The notes: generated from the letters alone by a model not told the origin. A stretch of DNA of 37,810 bases from a virus (IMGVR_UViG_3300019360_000149:1-37810), one strand, 5' to 3'. Numbered from the stretch's first letter, positions 511 to 5,556 are shown. Program-made: numbers and translations.

Positions 511-1047
511 ATGTTTGGCTGGAACGACGACAACGAGCAGAAATTCCGCGACCTGTGGGCGATCGGCCGCAGCGCGAGTCAGATCGCCGGCGAGCTCGGC
601 ACGACCCGCAGCGCGGTCTGCGCAAAGGCGCGGCGCATGAACCTTTCCCGGCGCGTTGCGACGGGCGGCCGTCCCGAGCGCGCCATCGTCCCGGATGACC
701 CGACTGCGCCGAACGTAGTCAGCCTGCCGCCGCGGCGGCCGCGCCTGCAGGGCCCGCCCGTCGATAGGCGGACCCGCCAGGAAATGGTTATGCCGGCGCG
801 CGCCCCCAGGCCTGCGCCGGTGCCGATGCCGCGGCTGAAGGAGCCAGAGCCCGCGAAAAAACCAGACGGCGCGCATTTCACCATCATGGACGTAAGCGAG
901 AAGGTTTGCCGCTGGCCGATCGGCACGCCGGGTGAAGAGGCGTTTCACTTCTGCGGCAATGCTACCCGCAACCCAGGCCTCGCGCCCTATTGCGAGTATC
1001 ATGAGCAGCTCTCGGTTCAGCCGGTTCAGCAGCGGAGGGCACCGTAA
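511..1047 (+). CDS. GcrA-family cell cycle regulator homologue
   Basis: This 178-residue protein has the two-part GcrA architecture. Residues 3-45 are the N-terminal helix-turn-helix (W-N-D-D-N-E then S-A-S-Q-I-A-G-E-L-G and R-S-A-V), which in Caulobacter GcrA contacts DNA. Residues 132-170 are the C-terminal Cys/His segment (C-R-W-P-I-G, F-H-F-C-G, Y-C-E-Y-H), which in GcrA binds sigma70 domain 2. GcrA activates promoters carrying methylated GANTC sites. The linker (50-130) is Pro/Arg-rich. The start at 511 is chosen because it gives the canonical N terminus; the same frame is open back to 244 but encodes nothing GcrA-like there. The stop overlaps the next start (TAATG). It lies in one operon with a DnaA-like protein and a DNA methyltransferase. 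Chromosomal gcrA is normally elsewhere, so this is a phage paralogue. Confidence 0.88.
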   Translation: MFGWNDDNEQKFRDLWAIGRSASQIAGELGTTRSAVCAKARRMNLSRRVATGGRPERAIVPDDPTAPNVVSLPPRRPRLQGPPVDRRTRQEMVMPARAPRPAPVPMPRLKEPEPAKKPDGAHFTIMDVSEKVCRWPIGTPGEEAFHFCGNATRNPGLAPYCEYHEQLSVQPVQQRRAP

Positions 1048-1715
1048 TGCCGCGCGCCAAGCCCAGACTCACGCCGGAATGGCGCGCGCACCTCTCGGAG
1101 GAGATGAAGCGGCGCCATGCCGATCCCGATTTCCGCATGACCTTGGGAAAGGCGGCCTCGGCCGCCTACAGGAAGCGCGCGCGCAAACCCGAATACAGGG
1201 CGTGGCGCAGCGAGCTGGCCTTCGAGGCCCGCCTCGATCCGAAGCGCTGCATCAATCACCGCGCCGCCATGCGCCGGCGTTGGGCAAAGCCCGGCGCGCG
1301 CGAAGCCCAGCGTCAGTCCCTTCGCCGCCGCAAGGCAGATCCCGAGTTTCAGAGGCTGACGAATGAAGCGCGCTGGACGCCGGCCGCGCGCGCCAAGGAG
1401 AGCGCCAGGAAGAGACGCCTCTGGGCGGAGCGGCGAGCGTTCGTGCATGAGCTCATTTCGCGTGGGCTGCTGCTCCGCAAGCAAAGGCGTCCCGGCAAGA
1501 TCGCCGGCATCATTCTCAAGGTGATGAAGGCGCATCGCATCACGCTCGACGATCTGCTGCGTAAGACACGCCGGGCCCTGATCGTCGAGGCGCGGATGGA
1601 GGCCTCGCGCCTGCTTCGCGCCGCCGGCTTCTCCTATCCCGTCATCGCGCGGGCGCTCTCTTTGCATCACACCACGGTGATCCATGCCGTGCAGAAGGGG
1701 GAAGCACGGTCATGA
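1047..1715 (+). CDS. DnaA domain IV-like protein with NUMOD3-like N-terminal repeats
   Basis: This is a 222-residue very basic protein. Residues 8-130 hold several copies of a short basic helical motif (H-A-D-P-D-F-R, K-A-D-P-E-F-Q, R-R-R-W-A) like the repeats at the left edge of the window. Residues about 150-216 match the DNA-binding domain IV of the replication initiator DnaA: a helix, the I-T-L-D-D-L-L turn, a second helix, and the signature A-L-S-L-H-H-T-T-V-I-H-A-V, which corresponds to the DnaA-box contacting helix. No AAA+ ATPase domain is present. It could bind DnaA boxes in phage or host DNA, or be a replication-region DNA-binding protein; that role is inferred. Start and stop overlap both neighbours, so it is translationally coupled. 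Confidence 0.75.
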   Translation: MPRAKPRLTPEWRAHLSEEMKRRHADPDFRMTLGKAASAAYRKRARKPEYRAWRSELAFEARLDPKRCINHRAAMRRRWAKPGAREAQRQSLRRRKADPEFQRLTNEARWTPAARAKESARKRRLWAERRAFVHELISRGLLLRKQRRPGKIAGIILKVMKAHRITLDDLLRKTRRALIVEARMEASRLLRAAGFSYPVIARALSLHHTTVIHAVQKGEARS

Positions 1716-2683
1716 GGCTGCCCTGGTACAAACGAAAGCACCAGCGGACGTTGGAGCGGGACCGCCCCCTGCCGCTCGAGCAGCGGGGTGCCTTGGGCAC
1801 GATCGAGGACCTCATCATGATGCGCGGCGCGCCGCTGCCGGACGATGTCCGCTGGCTCGCCGGCCATCTGGGGTGCTCGGTGCGCAAGGCGGGGCAGATC
1901 CTCGCGGCATTGGTGGGCGCCGGCGTCCTTTTCCGCGCGGGCGACGGCTTCATGACCGAGTCCTGCGCGGAGCTGATCGCCGAACGGCATGGCGAATCCG
2001 AACGCAACGCCGCCGCCGGCCAGGCGTCTGGCGCAGCGCGGCGCGCGAAGTCCGAATTATCTCCGGAAAATCCAGAGATAATTCCGGGCTCCGCAGACGC
2101 GCCCCAAGCAAAATCAAGGTCTTGCGGGAACGGACGCTCGGAAGAGCTAGAAAGAGAGAATAAACAAGCAGCAGCCGTAACTATCCCCGCTGCTGCGCCT
2201 CGATCGAAATCGAGGGCAGAAGATCCTGTGCTGACGCAGCAGGCGGTGGAGCTCCACCGCGCGGTGGCGAAGCTCATCGGCTCGGAAGCAGGGCGATGGG
2301 CCCATGAATTCGGCACCGTGATGGGCTGGGTCGAGCGCGGCTGGGGAGGGCATGCGCTGTCGGCGATCGAGCGCGTGCTCAAGCGCCGGAAGGGGCAGCT
2401 GCCCAATTCCTGGAAGTATTTCACCGATGCGATTGGCGAATCGGCGAAGGGCACCGGGCCGCCGCCGGCGCCGAGCGCGGCCGTCACGGCCGAGATGAGC
2501 GATGCCGAATGGGACCGCGCCGTGGCGCAATACTGCAAATTTGCACGAAAGGCGAAGCACAAGGGGCTGACCGGCCCTCCTGCATTCGCCTGGCATCATC
2601 AGCTCGGGCCGCCGCCAGGCGATGAGCGCTGCAGGGCGCCGGCCGCGGTGCTCGAGCGTCATGGTTTCACAAGGGCTGCATGA
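1712..2683 (+). CDS. DUF1376-like phage replication protein
   Basis: The protein has 323 residues. Residues 1-112 resemble DUF1376 / phage replisome organiser N-terminal domains: P-W-Y start, L-P-L-E-Q-R-G-A, a winged-helix region ending in G-A-G-V-L-F-R, then a charged helix and the G-x-x-S-G-A-A-R-R-A-K linker. The middle is low-complexity and the region 185-260 is a separate helical domain (W-A-H-E-F-G-T-V-M-G-W-V). Such proteins typically act in phage replication initiation or helicase loading. The start overlaps the preceding stop (ATGA) and the stop overlaps the next start. No helicase is seen next to it in this window, so the loading partner would be the host DnaB; that is inference. 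Confidence 0.6.
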   Translation: MRLPWYKRKHQRTLERDRPLPLEQRGALGTIEDLIMMRGAPLPDDVRWLAGHLGCSVRKAGQILAALVGAGVLFRAGDGFMTESCAELIAERHGESERNAAAGQASGAARRAKSELSPENPEIIPGSADAPQAKSRSCGNGRSEELERENKQAAAVTIPAAAPRSKSRAEDPVLTQQAVELHRAVAKLIGSEAGRWAHEFGTVMGWVERGWGGHALSAIERVLKRRKGQLPNSWKYFTDAIGESAKGTGPPPAPSAAVTAEMSDAEWDRAVAQYCKFARKAKHKGLTGPPAFAWHHQLGPPPGDERCRAPAAVLERHGFTRAA

Positions 2684-3711
2684 CGACGAAACGTGAAAGA
2701 GTCCGAAAAGCAGCCGCCCGACTCATGAATGCTTTGATCGAATCCCTGCGCTCGCCGCCGAGGCGAGATCCGGCAACGGGCATCGAGACGCGGGGCACGT
2801 TCGGCAAGGAGGCGCTGGCGCGGCTGGGCGTGAGCTTTCCACCGCCGAAGGGCTGGCGCAAAGAGCTGCTCTGGCGCGCCGGCGAGATTGCGTGCGCCAA
2901 CCGAAAGCTCGATGTCTTCGACGATATCGAAGAGCGCGCGCAACGGCGCGCCGCGCCGGCATCGATGGCCGCCATGAAGGAGGCCTGGAAGCTTTCCGTC
3001 GAGGCCATCATGCGCAGCATGATCGAGAACGGCGAGCAGCTGCCGGCATGGCCGATATTCGAGCAGGCCCTCAAGACGCCGATCGCCATCGACACGGTGA
3101 ATGAAGAGCGTGACGCATGGGGCGACCTCATCACCGCCGACCGGGTGATCAGGCTCGAGGAAGGAACGGTGATCGCCCGGCTGTACAATCGCGGGCATAT
3201 CACGCGCGAGCAGCGGGACGCAGCGGCGCTCTATGCAACGACCTATGGAAGTGCCGGTATCGATGCGCGGGTGACGGCGAGCTATGGCCAGGGCACCGGC
3301 GCCGGCGAGCCGAGCTATGGCATGCCGGCGACGGTGGCGGCGGCGATCGCCAGGGACCAGCTGCGCAAGCTCAGGGCGCGTCTCGGCAACGACACTTGGC
3401 CGCTCGTCGAGCGCGTGGTCATCGTCGACGAGCCGGTGCTACAGATGGGCTATGCGGCCTATCCGCCATGGAAGACGCCGAGCCGCCGATCGGCGATCCG
3501 CACCGGCATGAAGCTGCTCACCCATGGCCTCGACCAGGCCTTCGAGCACTTCCATAGCGGCGTCGACCGGCGCCGGCGGCACGCCACCGCGGCGCCCGTG
3601 TCGAGCGCCGAGCGCCGGGCCTATTTCGCCAGGGGCGCCGACGCGCCGGCGCTCGAGAAGGCCATGGAGAAAATCCGGGCTCGCAACGCCAAGCGGAAGA
3701 GCCGGCGCTGA
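2680..3711 (+). CDS. Phage early protein with DUF6456-like C-terminal part
   Basis: The protein has 343 residues and no firmly recognised catalytic motif. The N-terminal 130 residues are basic and helical. Residues about 165-300 (R-L-Y-N-R-G-H-I-T-R-E-Q, then G-I-D-A-R-V-T-A-S-Y, later R-R-S-A-I-R-T-G-M-K-L-L) resemble DUF6456-type domains found in alphaproteobacterial regulators and phage early proteins. The C terminus is strongly Arg/Lys-rich and suggests nucleic-acid binding. It is coupled by ATGA overlap to the gene before it and by TGATG to the gene after it. A role as a late-gene activator or antiterminator would fit its position at the end of the replication block, but the sequence does not show this. 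Confidence 0.5.
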   Translation: MTTKRERVRKAAARLMNALIESLRSPPRRDPATGIETRGTFGKEALARLGVSFPPPKGWRKELLWRAGEIACANRKLDVFDDIEERAQRRAAPASMAAMKEAWKLSVEAIMRSMIENGEQLPAWPIFEQALKTPIAIDTVNEERDAWGDLITADRVIRLEEGTVIARLYNRGHITREQRDAAALYATTYGSAGIDARVTASYGQGTGAGEPSYGMPATVAAAIARDQLRKLRARLGNDTWPLVERVVIVDEPVLQMGYAAYPPWKTPSRRSAIRTGMKLLTHGLDQAFEHFHSGVDRRRRHATAAPVSSAERRAYFARGADAPALEKAMEKIRARNAKRKSRR

Positions 3712-4058
3712 TGGTCAGTGAACAGACGACGAACACAATTGTGGAGCTGGCGAAAAACGGCATGCTCCCGCGCGCGATATTCGAGAGGCTGAACCGCGCG
3801 GTCTCGATCGGCGTCATATATAAAGTCTTGCGGGCCGCCAAGCATAAGGGCGTCAGGCTCCGCGACTTCCGTTTGGGCACTTATGACGTTCGGGAAATCC
3901 TTACAAAACAGGTAGTTGCGGGCCTATCGGATGCCGCGCGCGACCGCGATTGCGGCATCGGCGAGCTCGCCCGCCGGCTTCTCGAGCGCATCGTCGAAGA
4001 CGGCCTGGTCAATGCGGTTCTCGACGACCACAAGCCCCGAAAAAACAGGCAATCGTGA
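3711..4058 (+). CDS. Small putative helix-turn-helix protein
   Basis: This 115-residue protein starts in a TGATG overlap with the preceding gene. Residues 8-50 have a helix-turn-helix look (I-V-E-L-A-K-N-G-M-L-P-R-A-I-F-E-R-L followed by I-G-V-I-Y-K-V-L-R-A-A-K), similar to homeodomain-like or resolvase-type HTH units. The remainder (70-105) is a helical segment with G-I-G-E-L-A-R-R-L-L. No family is recognised with certainty. A transcriptional or replication regulator is the reasonable guess from HTH and context. Confidence 0.55.
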   Translation: MVSEQTTNTIVELAKNGMLPRAIFERLNRAVSIGVIYKVLRAAKHKGVRLRDFRLGTYDVREILTKQVVAGLSDAARDRDCGIGELARRLLERIVEDGLVNAVLDDHKPRKNRQS

Positions 4059-4243
4059 AGGGGTGGATTGGCGTGGCACTCGATGGCATTGAATGTGCAA
4101 CTGCTGATTCGCGCGCCTGGAGGCGAGCCCAAGTCGGCGGAAAGGCCTCAGGCTCCTCCCCGGACGTGATGCCTTTGATCCACGTGGCCCGGCGTTCACC
4201 CCCTCGCGCCGGGCCATTTCATAGGGAGATCGGTCAGACATGA
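4055..4243 (+). CDS. 62-aa ORF bracketed by GTGA and ATGA overlaps
   Basis: This ORF starts at a GTG sharing bases with the preceding stop (GTGA at 4055) and ends at a TGA sharing bases with the methyltransferase start (ATGA at 4240). Such coupling on both sides is unlikely for a random open frame. The N terminus M-K-G-W-I-G-V-A-L-D-G-I recalls motif I of HAD-type hydrolases often found in phages (G-W-I-G-V-D-L-D-G-T). Here the first Asp is Ala and Thr is Ile, and nothing HAD-like follows. It may be a decayed HAD gene, or an unrelated small protein. The segment also contains a perfect 9-bp inverted repeat (4186-4194 with 4207-4215) and an imperfect one (4119-4129 with 4151-4159). The alternative is a non-coding leader. 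Confidence 0.45.
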   Translation: MKGWIGVALDGIECATADSRAWRRAQVGGKASGSSPDVMPLIHVARRSPPRAGPFHREIGQT

Positions 4244-5556
4244 GCAAGAAGGCGGCCGGCAAGGTCGCCATCGTCCATTGGCCTTTGGCGAAGCTGAAGG
4301 CCGATGCCGGCAATGCGCGCACCCATTCGCCTGAGCAGGTGAGGCAGATCGCCGCCAGCATCAAGGAATTCGGGTTCACCAATCCGATCCTGGCGAAGTC
4401 TGACGGCACGATCATCGCCGGCCATGGCCGCCTGCTCGCCGCTACGCGCCTCAAGCTCGACGAGGTGCCGGTCATCGTCCTCGACTGGCTGACCGATACG
4501 CAGGCGAAGGCGCTGCTGCTCGCCGACAACAAGCTGGCCGAGAATGCAGGGTGGGACGAGGAACTGCTCGCCCAAGCGATGCGCGAGCTCGATGAGGCGG
4601 ACTTCGACCTGGCTCTCACCGGATTCGACGACGACGAGATCAACGCGCTGCTGATGGACGCCACCAAGGGCGCCACAGATCCCGACGCGGTTCCGGAAAT
4701 GTGGGCGACGCCGGTTTCGCGCGCCGGCGACTGCTGGATACTGGGTCAGCATCGCGTGCTCTGCGGCGACGCCACGAATCCCGAGGACGTGAAGCGCGTG
4801 CTCAACGGTGTCTCGCCCATGCTCATGATCGGCGACCCGCCTTACGGCGTGAGCTATGATGCAAGCTGGCGCGATCGGGCGAATTTCTCTGGCAGCGGCA
4901 CGCGATCGACGGGCAAGGTCAAAGGTGATGATCAGGCCGACTGGACGAGGGCCTGGGATCTCTTCCCCGGCGATATCGCTTATGTCTGGCATGGTGAGCT
5001 GCAGGCGCCGGATCTCGCGCGTCAGCTGCAGGCGAGCCGCTTCATACTGCGCAATCTGATCGTCTGGCGGAGACCGCAATTCGTGGTGAGCAGGGGCAAT
5101 TATCACAGGCAGCACGAAACCTGCTGGTACGCTGTCCGCAAGAGCGCCACCGGGAACTGGAGCGGGGACCGCAAGCAATCGAATGTGTGGGACATCACCA
5201 ACAGCGCGGGCGGTGATGATACACAGACGGACCACTCCACACAGAAGCCAGTGGAGTGCATGCGCCGTCCAATGCTCAACAACTCCTCGCCCGGGCAGGC
5301 AATATATGACCCCTTCCTGGGCTCGGGCACAAGCGTCATCGCTGCGGAGATGGAGCGTCGCATCTGCCATGGGCTGGAGATCGATCCGCTCTATGTCGAT
5401 CTCATCGTGAGGAGATGGCAGGACTTCACGGGCAAGGAAGCCAGGCTCGAGCAGGACAAGCGCAGCTTCGCCGAGATCGTATCGGACCGTGCTGTCACTG
5501 CGGATGGTGCACCGTCGCAGAAGGTAAAGGTGCTGAAGAAGAGGAAGGCAGCATGA
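4240..5556 (+). CDS. ParB-domain DNA methyltransferase (N6-A/N4-C type)
   Basis: This is a 438-residue two-domain protein. Residues 10-105 are a ParB/sulfiredoxin-type domain, with N-A-R-T-H-S, the G-H-G-R box at 61-64 and A-D-N-K-L-A. Residues 160-405 are a DNA methylase of the N6_N4_Mtase family: catalytic motif D-P-P-Y at 199-202, H-S-T-Q-K-P-V-E at 332-339, and the SAM-binding D-P-F-L-G-S-G-T at 357-364. Motif IV before motif I indicates the beta-class order, as in CcrM. It probably methylates adenine (or N4-cytosine) on phage and host DNA. No restriction partner is adjacent, so it is an orphan enzyme. Target specificity cannot be read from sequence. Its co-occurrence with GcrA makes a GANTC-type or promoter-relevant target worth testing. 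Confidence 0.92.
   Translation: MSKKAAGKVAIVHWPLAKLKADAGNARTHSPEQVRQIAASIKEFGFTNPILAKSDGTIIAGHGRLLAATRLKLDEVPVIVLDWLTDTQAKALLLADNKLAENAGWDEELLAQAMRELDEADFDLALTGFDDDEINALLMDATKGATDPDAVPEMWATPVSRAGDCWILGQHRVLCGDATNPEDVKRVLNGVSPMLMIGDPPYGVSYDASWRDRANFSGSGTRSTGKVKGDDQADWTRAWDLFPGDIAYVWHGELQAPDLARQLQASRFILRNLIVWRRPQFVVSRGNYHRQHETCWYAVRKSATGNWSGDRKQSNVWDITNSAGGDDTQTDHSTQKPVECMRRPMLNNSSPGQAIYDPFLGSGTSVIAAEMERRICHGLEIDPLYVDLIVRRWQDFTGKEARLEQDKRSFAEIVSDRAVTADGAPSQKVKVLKKRKAA

Follow-up and report, generated by a model that had tools for sequence, protein, structure and literature searches.

Linked gcrA and DnaA-domain-IV genes on viral contigs: a candidate pair of phage transcription regulators

Relatives of three alphaproteobacterial cell-cycle regulators, GcrA, DnaA and a DNA methyltransferase, are encoded within about 5 kb of IMGVR_UViG_3300019360_000149, recorded as a virus of 37.8 kb, and the question is whether these genes form one circuit. 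The whole stretch of 37,810 nucleotides is called the window here. A sequence-only reading had proposed that the three proteins act together, redirecting host transcription or timing phage replication to the cell cycle.

The locus and its GcrA and DnaA-IV proteins

The features of the locus are listed in Table 1. The five genes between 511 and 4058 form an operon in which every neighbouring pair overlaps by 1 to 4 nt; the DnaA-domain-IV (dnaA-IV) gene shares 1 nt with the stop codon of gcrA, and the replisome-organizer gene is joined to dnaA-IV by an ATGA overlap. From this arrangement, the five are probably co-translated. The earlier description of mostly overlapping genes within about 5 kb is even surpassed in this part, but it does not extend to the methyltransferase gene, which lies outside the overlaps, beyond a 181-nt gap with a strong hairpin that was not called as a terminator by terminator prediction. 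Genes for the small terminase, the large terminase and the portal follow 3' of the methyltransferase. The phage had also been referred to as a prophage, a status that is unsupported because the scanned ORFs included no recognisable integrase or repressor and the search for tRNAs was negative.

Table 1. Coordinates of the features of the locus (positions in the window)
Feature	Position	Strand	Description
gcrA	511..1047	+	PF07750; DNA-binding domain about 517-645, proline-rich linker, sigma-70-interacting domain (SID) about 874-1038
DnaA-domain-IV gene (dnaA-IV)	1047..1715	+	PF08299; domain IV at 1506-1697; the N-terminal half is basic and contains repeats resembling 'ADPEFR'
DUF1376-type replisome organizer / primosomal protein	1712..2683	+	phrog_34432 E=2e-14; phrog_9327 (primosomal protein) E=6e-10
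Candidate replication origin	2054..2200	.	14-3-14 inverted repeat (2054-2084), then AT-rich dip, within the replisome-organizer gene
Operon gene without family assignment	2680..3711	+	no DUF6456 match; AlphaFold pLDDT 45
Last gene of the overlapping operon	3711..4058	+	no significant family match
Strong GC-rich 12-bp hairpin without T-run	4183..4217	+	in the gap between operon and methyltransferase; z=-1.8
ParB-N6/N4 DNA methyltransferase	4240..5556	+	ParB_N 4318-4518, MTase 4828-5409, DPPY motif

By inspection, the left end of the contig interrupts a gene. At this cut end (1-153) there are three tandem 51-nt repeats encoding 'MSQARKKAWADPEVRAR' units, and a diverged copy of the repeat is found at 1085-1135, within the part of the dnaA-IV gene that encodes the N-terminal half of its product; a repeat-type segment may therefore be common to both genes. 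A short ORF at 177-482 resembles the C-terminal part of DUF7768 / nucleoside 2-deoxyribosyltransferase-like proteins. The gene at 2680-3711 was considered as a DUF6456/GafZ protein, to which its C-terminal half is similar by eye; the HMM search rejects this assignment, the AlphaFold model was uninformative, and tblastn retrieved no relative of the product in phages or plasmids. Single-sequence patterns of GcrA, the DnaA-IV protein, the 2680-3711 protein and TerL found no viral relatives, those of GcrA and TerL found none in genome contigs either, and no near DNA match to the window was present among the GenBank phages.

The gcrA product matches PF07750 over residues 4-176 (E=5.4e-29, 102 bits against a cut-off of 26.9), aligns end to end with Caulobacter GcrA 7ye1 in phmmer (E=3e-21) and aligns separately to the solved DNA-binding (5yiu) and sigma-interacting (5yix) domains. 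The N-terminal HTH DNA-binding domain and the C-terminal SID by which GcrA membership is defined are both present, and with a score 75 bits above the curated cut-off the GcrA homologue recognised earlier was confirmed. For the cell-cycle sigma-70 cofactor equivalog NF050816 it reached 87 bits, below the cut-off of 280, and judged by these scores it is a homologue, not an orthologue, of the cell-cycle GcrA. Three GcrA matches on plasmids were inspected, and none had an annotated DnaA-IV or ParB-methyltransferase neighbour. The archaeon Sulfolobus acidocaldarius, a control genome, also exceeded the Pfam GcrA cut-off, which is probably a generic HTH match.

The assignment of a DnaA domain IV to the end of the next protein likewise held (PF08299, E=1.2e-9, 38.5 bits against 31.5, residues 154-217). 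The HTTVIHA signature is intact, as are the residues corresponding to E. coli R399, R407, H434, T435 and T436, while D433 is replaced by H. Going by the published roles of these E. coli DnaA residues, DNA binding is likely kept, since these five equivalents are present, but specificity may have changed, because D433 is H. A full DnaA replication initiator was considered and rejected, as both the AAA+ domain and a DnaA-box cluster are missing: domain IV was the one DnaA domain found in the product, AAA+ ATPase domain III being absent (TIGR00362, 31 bits against a cut-off of 344). The plain label DnaA is therefore misleading, the more so as the characterised small alphaproteobacterial DnaA-IV proteins activate transcription of gene transfer agents. 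A small protein with a DnaA domain IV corresponds to GafY and to the N terminus of GafA, and we liken the protein to GafY by domain, not as a demonstrated orthologue. The HMM search found no GafZ/DUF6456 partner anywhere in the window, and no DnaA-IV contig passed the DUF6456 family cut-off.

The methyltransferase and the cell-cycle circuit

The methyltransferase matches PF01555 (E=2.5e-19), ParB_N (E=3.8e-6) and phrog_498 (E=9e-136), and ParB_N is followed by a beta-class N6/N4 methyltransferase, as is characteristic of the phrog_498 ParB-DNA methyltransferases. Its motif IV (DPPY, residue 199) precedes motif I (FLGSG, residue 359), and the beta class given earlier, together with the ParB domain, is therefore correct. 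The family has members in 713 GenBank phage records, with phages of Streptococcus, Gordonia, Microbacterium and Staphylococcus at the head of the list, and thus reaches phages of Gram-positive hosts. With the CcrM equivalog NF050803 there was a 138-aa match of 42 bits, against a cut-off of 830. Among the 49 longest other GcrA-bearing viral contigs, some N6/N4 methyltransferase occurred in 19 and a member of this family in one. Conversely, 50 long viral contigs with the closest methyltransferase relatives contained GcrA in 2 cases, DnaA-IV in 4 and both in none. In many loci the gene lies shortly upstream of the large terminase, which accounts for its position here. On these grounds, the METHYLTRANSFERASE is a separate, generic phage DNA-modification gene outside the gcrA/dnaA-IV pair, and its proposed role as third member of a circuit was not borne out: it is of the DPPY/ParB type, not CcrM, and lies outside the overlapping operon. 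On a viral contig that also has a relative of this methyltransferase, a 258-aa open frame (L083-L085; G023:6286-6705, minus strand) was observed to encode three GcrA-type DNA-binding domains in tandem.

In the circuit as first proposed, the phage methyltransferase would methylate the GANTC sites at which the phage GcrA acts, and GcrA, with the DnaA-IV protein, would couple the phage to the host cell cycle. The window GcrA retains its DNA-binding domain, and GANTC-specific phage methyltransferases exist in this host group (PMC5537653); moreover, 8 of the 53 other contigs with GcrA encode, beside gcrA or close to it, a relative of NPPY-type methyltransferases, a family that includes those of phiN3 and phiCbK. 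We nevertheless regard this circuit as quite improbable for the window, where no NPPY-type enzyme was detected, and where the enzyme that is present is generic across phages and its family missing from 48/49 other GcrA contigs. The frequency of GANTC (ratio 0.77) is within the range of control motifs, and there is one site in the gap upstream of the methyltransferase and none before the terminase. An avoidance of GANTC was apparent under a low-order model and disappeared against the control motifs. Timing by the cell cycle is likewise not supported, as GANTC is not specially avoided and DnaA boxes occur at the level of chance (2 with at most 1 mismatch versus 2.1 expected), with no cluster in the window. 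In L117, L127, L145 and L119/L120, an NPPY-type methyltransferase gene adjoins gcrA or lies at most about 0.5 kb from it. The idea of a phage GcrA-GANTC circuit fits such phages, with an NPPY enzyme beside gcrA, better than the phage of the window, and the view that the latter holds a copy of the cell-cycle circuit is corrected accordingly.

Linkage of gcrA and dnaA-IV and its possible function

A scan with GcrA profiles yielded 53 viral contigs, and of the 49 longest, which were examined for other genes, 7 contained DnaA-IV, in 5 cases within 750 nt on the same strand. The reverse scan with DnaA-IV gave 80 contigs, 50 of which were searched whole; GcrA was above the cut-off in 11, adjoining dnaA-IV in 9 of these. 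After related contigs had been merged, 11 lineages contained both genes, 8 of them within 800 nt on one strand, the window, which prompted the test, being counted in both numbers. Were the genes placed at random, this adjacency would have a probability of about 6e-11 with the whole contig available and of about 1e-4 (1.2e-4) when confined to 6 kb of the same strand; more aggressive merging (6/9 lineages adjacent) gives 0.002. These values are rough, because the independence of the lineages rests on the few ORFs shared and on ~30% GcrA identity. Representative contigs of the paired lineages had few other genes in common, and their GcrAs were about 30% identical.

The enrichment in co-occurrence was modest (11/50 versus 2/50, p=0.015; 7/49 versus 4/50, p=0.36), and most contigs have one gene without the other (42/49 GcrA contigs without DnaA-IV and 39/50 DnaA-IV contigs without GcrA), so that neither gene needs the other. 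Taken together, these counts indicate that the gcrA and dnaA-IV genes are linked beyond chance. The search for co-occurrence suggested by the sequence-only reading thus upheld the adjacency of these two genes and did not extend it to the methyltransferase.

In one of the 8 adjacent lineages, the GcrA match is an ORF of 72-87 aa that overlaps the end of dnaA-IV and covers GcrA profile positions 94-147. These SID-only ORFs exceed the Pfam GcrA cut-off and have no DNA-binding domain. An AlphaFold model built from 12 sequences had a pLDDT of 87-91 over the core, and its best PDB match was 5yix, in which the GcrA SID is in complex with sigma-70 domain 2 (Foldseek probability 0.94); the E value of 0.2 is weak, which is to be expected for 45 residues. 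A dedicated scan found the SID-only form in 14 contigs, down to 46% identity, with dnaA-IV directly upstream in 14/14. Another candidate for this form, the 61-aa gene that immediately follows dnaA-IV in two Bradyrhizobium phages, proved not to be SID-only. At L118:8558-9238, directly after a full gcrA, we noted by inspection a DnaA-IV protein with two GcrA-DBD-like HTH units before domain IV. Parts of the two proteins are being exchanged, which argues for a joint function.

GcrA is a sigma-70 cofactor and the characterised small DnaA-IV proteins of Alphaproteobacteria activate transcription, which makes steering of the sigma-70 polymerase by the pair the most economical reading. We consider it on balance probable that gcrA and dnaA-IV work as a regulatory pair of the phage and direct host sigma-70 RNA polymerase, a module that would serve transcription control rather than as a replication clock. 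The DnaA-IV protein would bind specific sequences at (late) promoters of the phage, in the way GafY acts on gene transfer agents, and GcrA would contact sigma-70 domain 2, its own DNA-binding domain being optional; the two together would switch transcription from early to late or tune it to the host, while the neighbouring replisome organizer would carry the probable origin. Speaking against a regulator pair are the independence of the two genes, the lack of GafZ/DUF6456 in the window and the modest enrichment; gene order in a replication module could also favour the adjacency. The predominance of contigs with one gene alone, and the finding that gcrA also adjoins helicase, methyltransferase and other early genes, would suit a lack of any functional link, with alphaproteobacterial phages taking host-like regulators into one early-gene slot. 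That the slot explains everything is very improbable, as the adjacency exceeds the within-module null and the SID-only ORFs are tied to dnaA-IV in every contig found.

A second alternative, which we judge unlikely, makes the DnaA-IV protein a replication accessory that works with the DUF1376 organizer at the phage origin (or at host DnaA boxes), gcrA being an independent early regulator and a neighbour by chance. The dnaA-IV gene directly precedes the organizer gene here, the order is the same in MW202748 (annotated replisome organizer) and in some other contigs, and phage records annotate such DnaA-IV proteins as replication initiators. In addition, a candidate origin is located inside the organizer gene. 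Its inverted repeat (GAATTATCTCCGGA-AAA-TCCAGAGATAATTC) is the sole one of such quality in the contig, with about 0.7 expected by chance; homologous organizer genes of other contigs show an AT dip in a similar position, around nt 320-410, where several also have 11-nt iterons; repeats with 11-nt spacing are seen there in, e.g., L051, L226, L141, L122 and L198. In lambda, the origin lies inside the O gene. A phage origin at 2054-2200 is probable from these features and would leave little need for a DnaA-box origin. The absence of an AAA+ domain from the protein and of a DnaA-box cluster from the window speaks against a replication accessory, as do the origins of the related organizers, which appear to have phage-specific iterons instead of DnaA boxes, and the SID-only GcrA beside dnaA-IV would be left unexplained. 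GafY, too, has been proposed not to act on oriC (PMC9632790).

Returning to the regulator pair, a more specific version, a reasonable possibility but short of probable, is a two-part sigma-70 switch in alphaproteobacterial phages in which the DnaA-IV protein finds the promoter and GcrA or the bare SID engages the polymerase. The sigma-binding domain of GcrA would then be a detachable module without need for methylated GANTC. Phages would have taken the part of GcrA that contacts sigma-70 away from the part that reads methylation and joined it to a DnaA-type DNA-binding domain, making the separate roles of the two halves directly testable.

Comparison with known systems

A GcrA-family protein in a phage of an alphaproteobacterium is shared by the window with phiCbK-like Caulobacter phages (PMC3556154), Atu_ph08 (PMC6630229), phiLM21-like prophages (PMC12429752) and a coral phage (PMC11309003), and the available parts of these reports describe neither the gcrA/dnaA-IV pair nor the SID-only form. 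In the corresponding part of the work on phiLM21-like prophages, GcrA is reported in five and a DnaA-annotated ORF in one, with no link drawn between them (PMC12429752). The Caulobacter GcrA-CcrM circuit (PMC3667746) has in common with the window a GcrA with both domains, whereas the window is devoid of a CcrM-type methyltransferase. The sinorhizobial phage methyltransferases shown to methylate GANTC (PMC5537653) are similarly encoded near the replication module, but have NPPY/F/W motifs and no ParB domain is mentioned for them, unlike the DPPY and ParB of the window enzyme. Aurantimonas phage AmM-1 and MW202748 encode phrog_498 methyltransferases 48-51% identical to that of the window, directly before the terminase genes in MW202748 as in the window, and have a DnaA-IV gene 3-4 kb upstream of the methyltransferase; they differ in having no GcrA.

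Gene transfer agents are thought to derive from phages, and the pair, if it works as proposed, would tie phage regulators to their GafY activators. GafA activates the R. capsulatus gene transfer agent via its N-terminal DnaA-like domain and RNA polymerase omega (PMC6363796, PMC9638019), and Caulobacter GafY binds promoters and contacts RpoD domains 3-4 (PMC11150451). Both GafY/GafZ and GafA (PMC9632790, PMC11150451, PMC9638019, PMC6363796) resemble the window in a small DnaA-domain-IV protein beside a partner acting on RNA polymerase, and their targets are phage-type structural genes; in the window, the partner is GcrA (SID in other phages) and a DUF6456 protein is not detectable. The full-text literature on GcrA with DnaA-like proteins in phages, most subscription journals being outside this scope, yielded no description of the gcrA/dnaA-IV pair or the SID-only form. 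Phage GcrA and GafA-like phage regulators (PMC6363796) are thus known, and the gcrA/dnaA-IV pair and the SID-only GcrA are apparently new within the literature searched.
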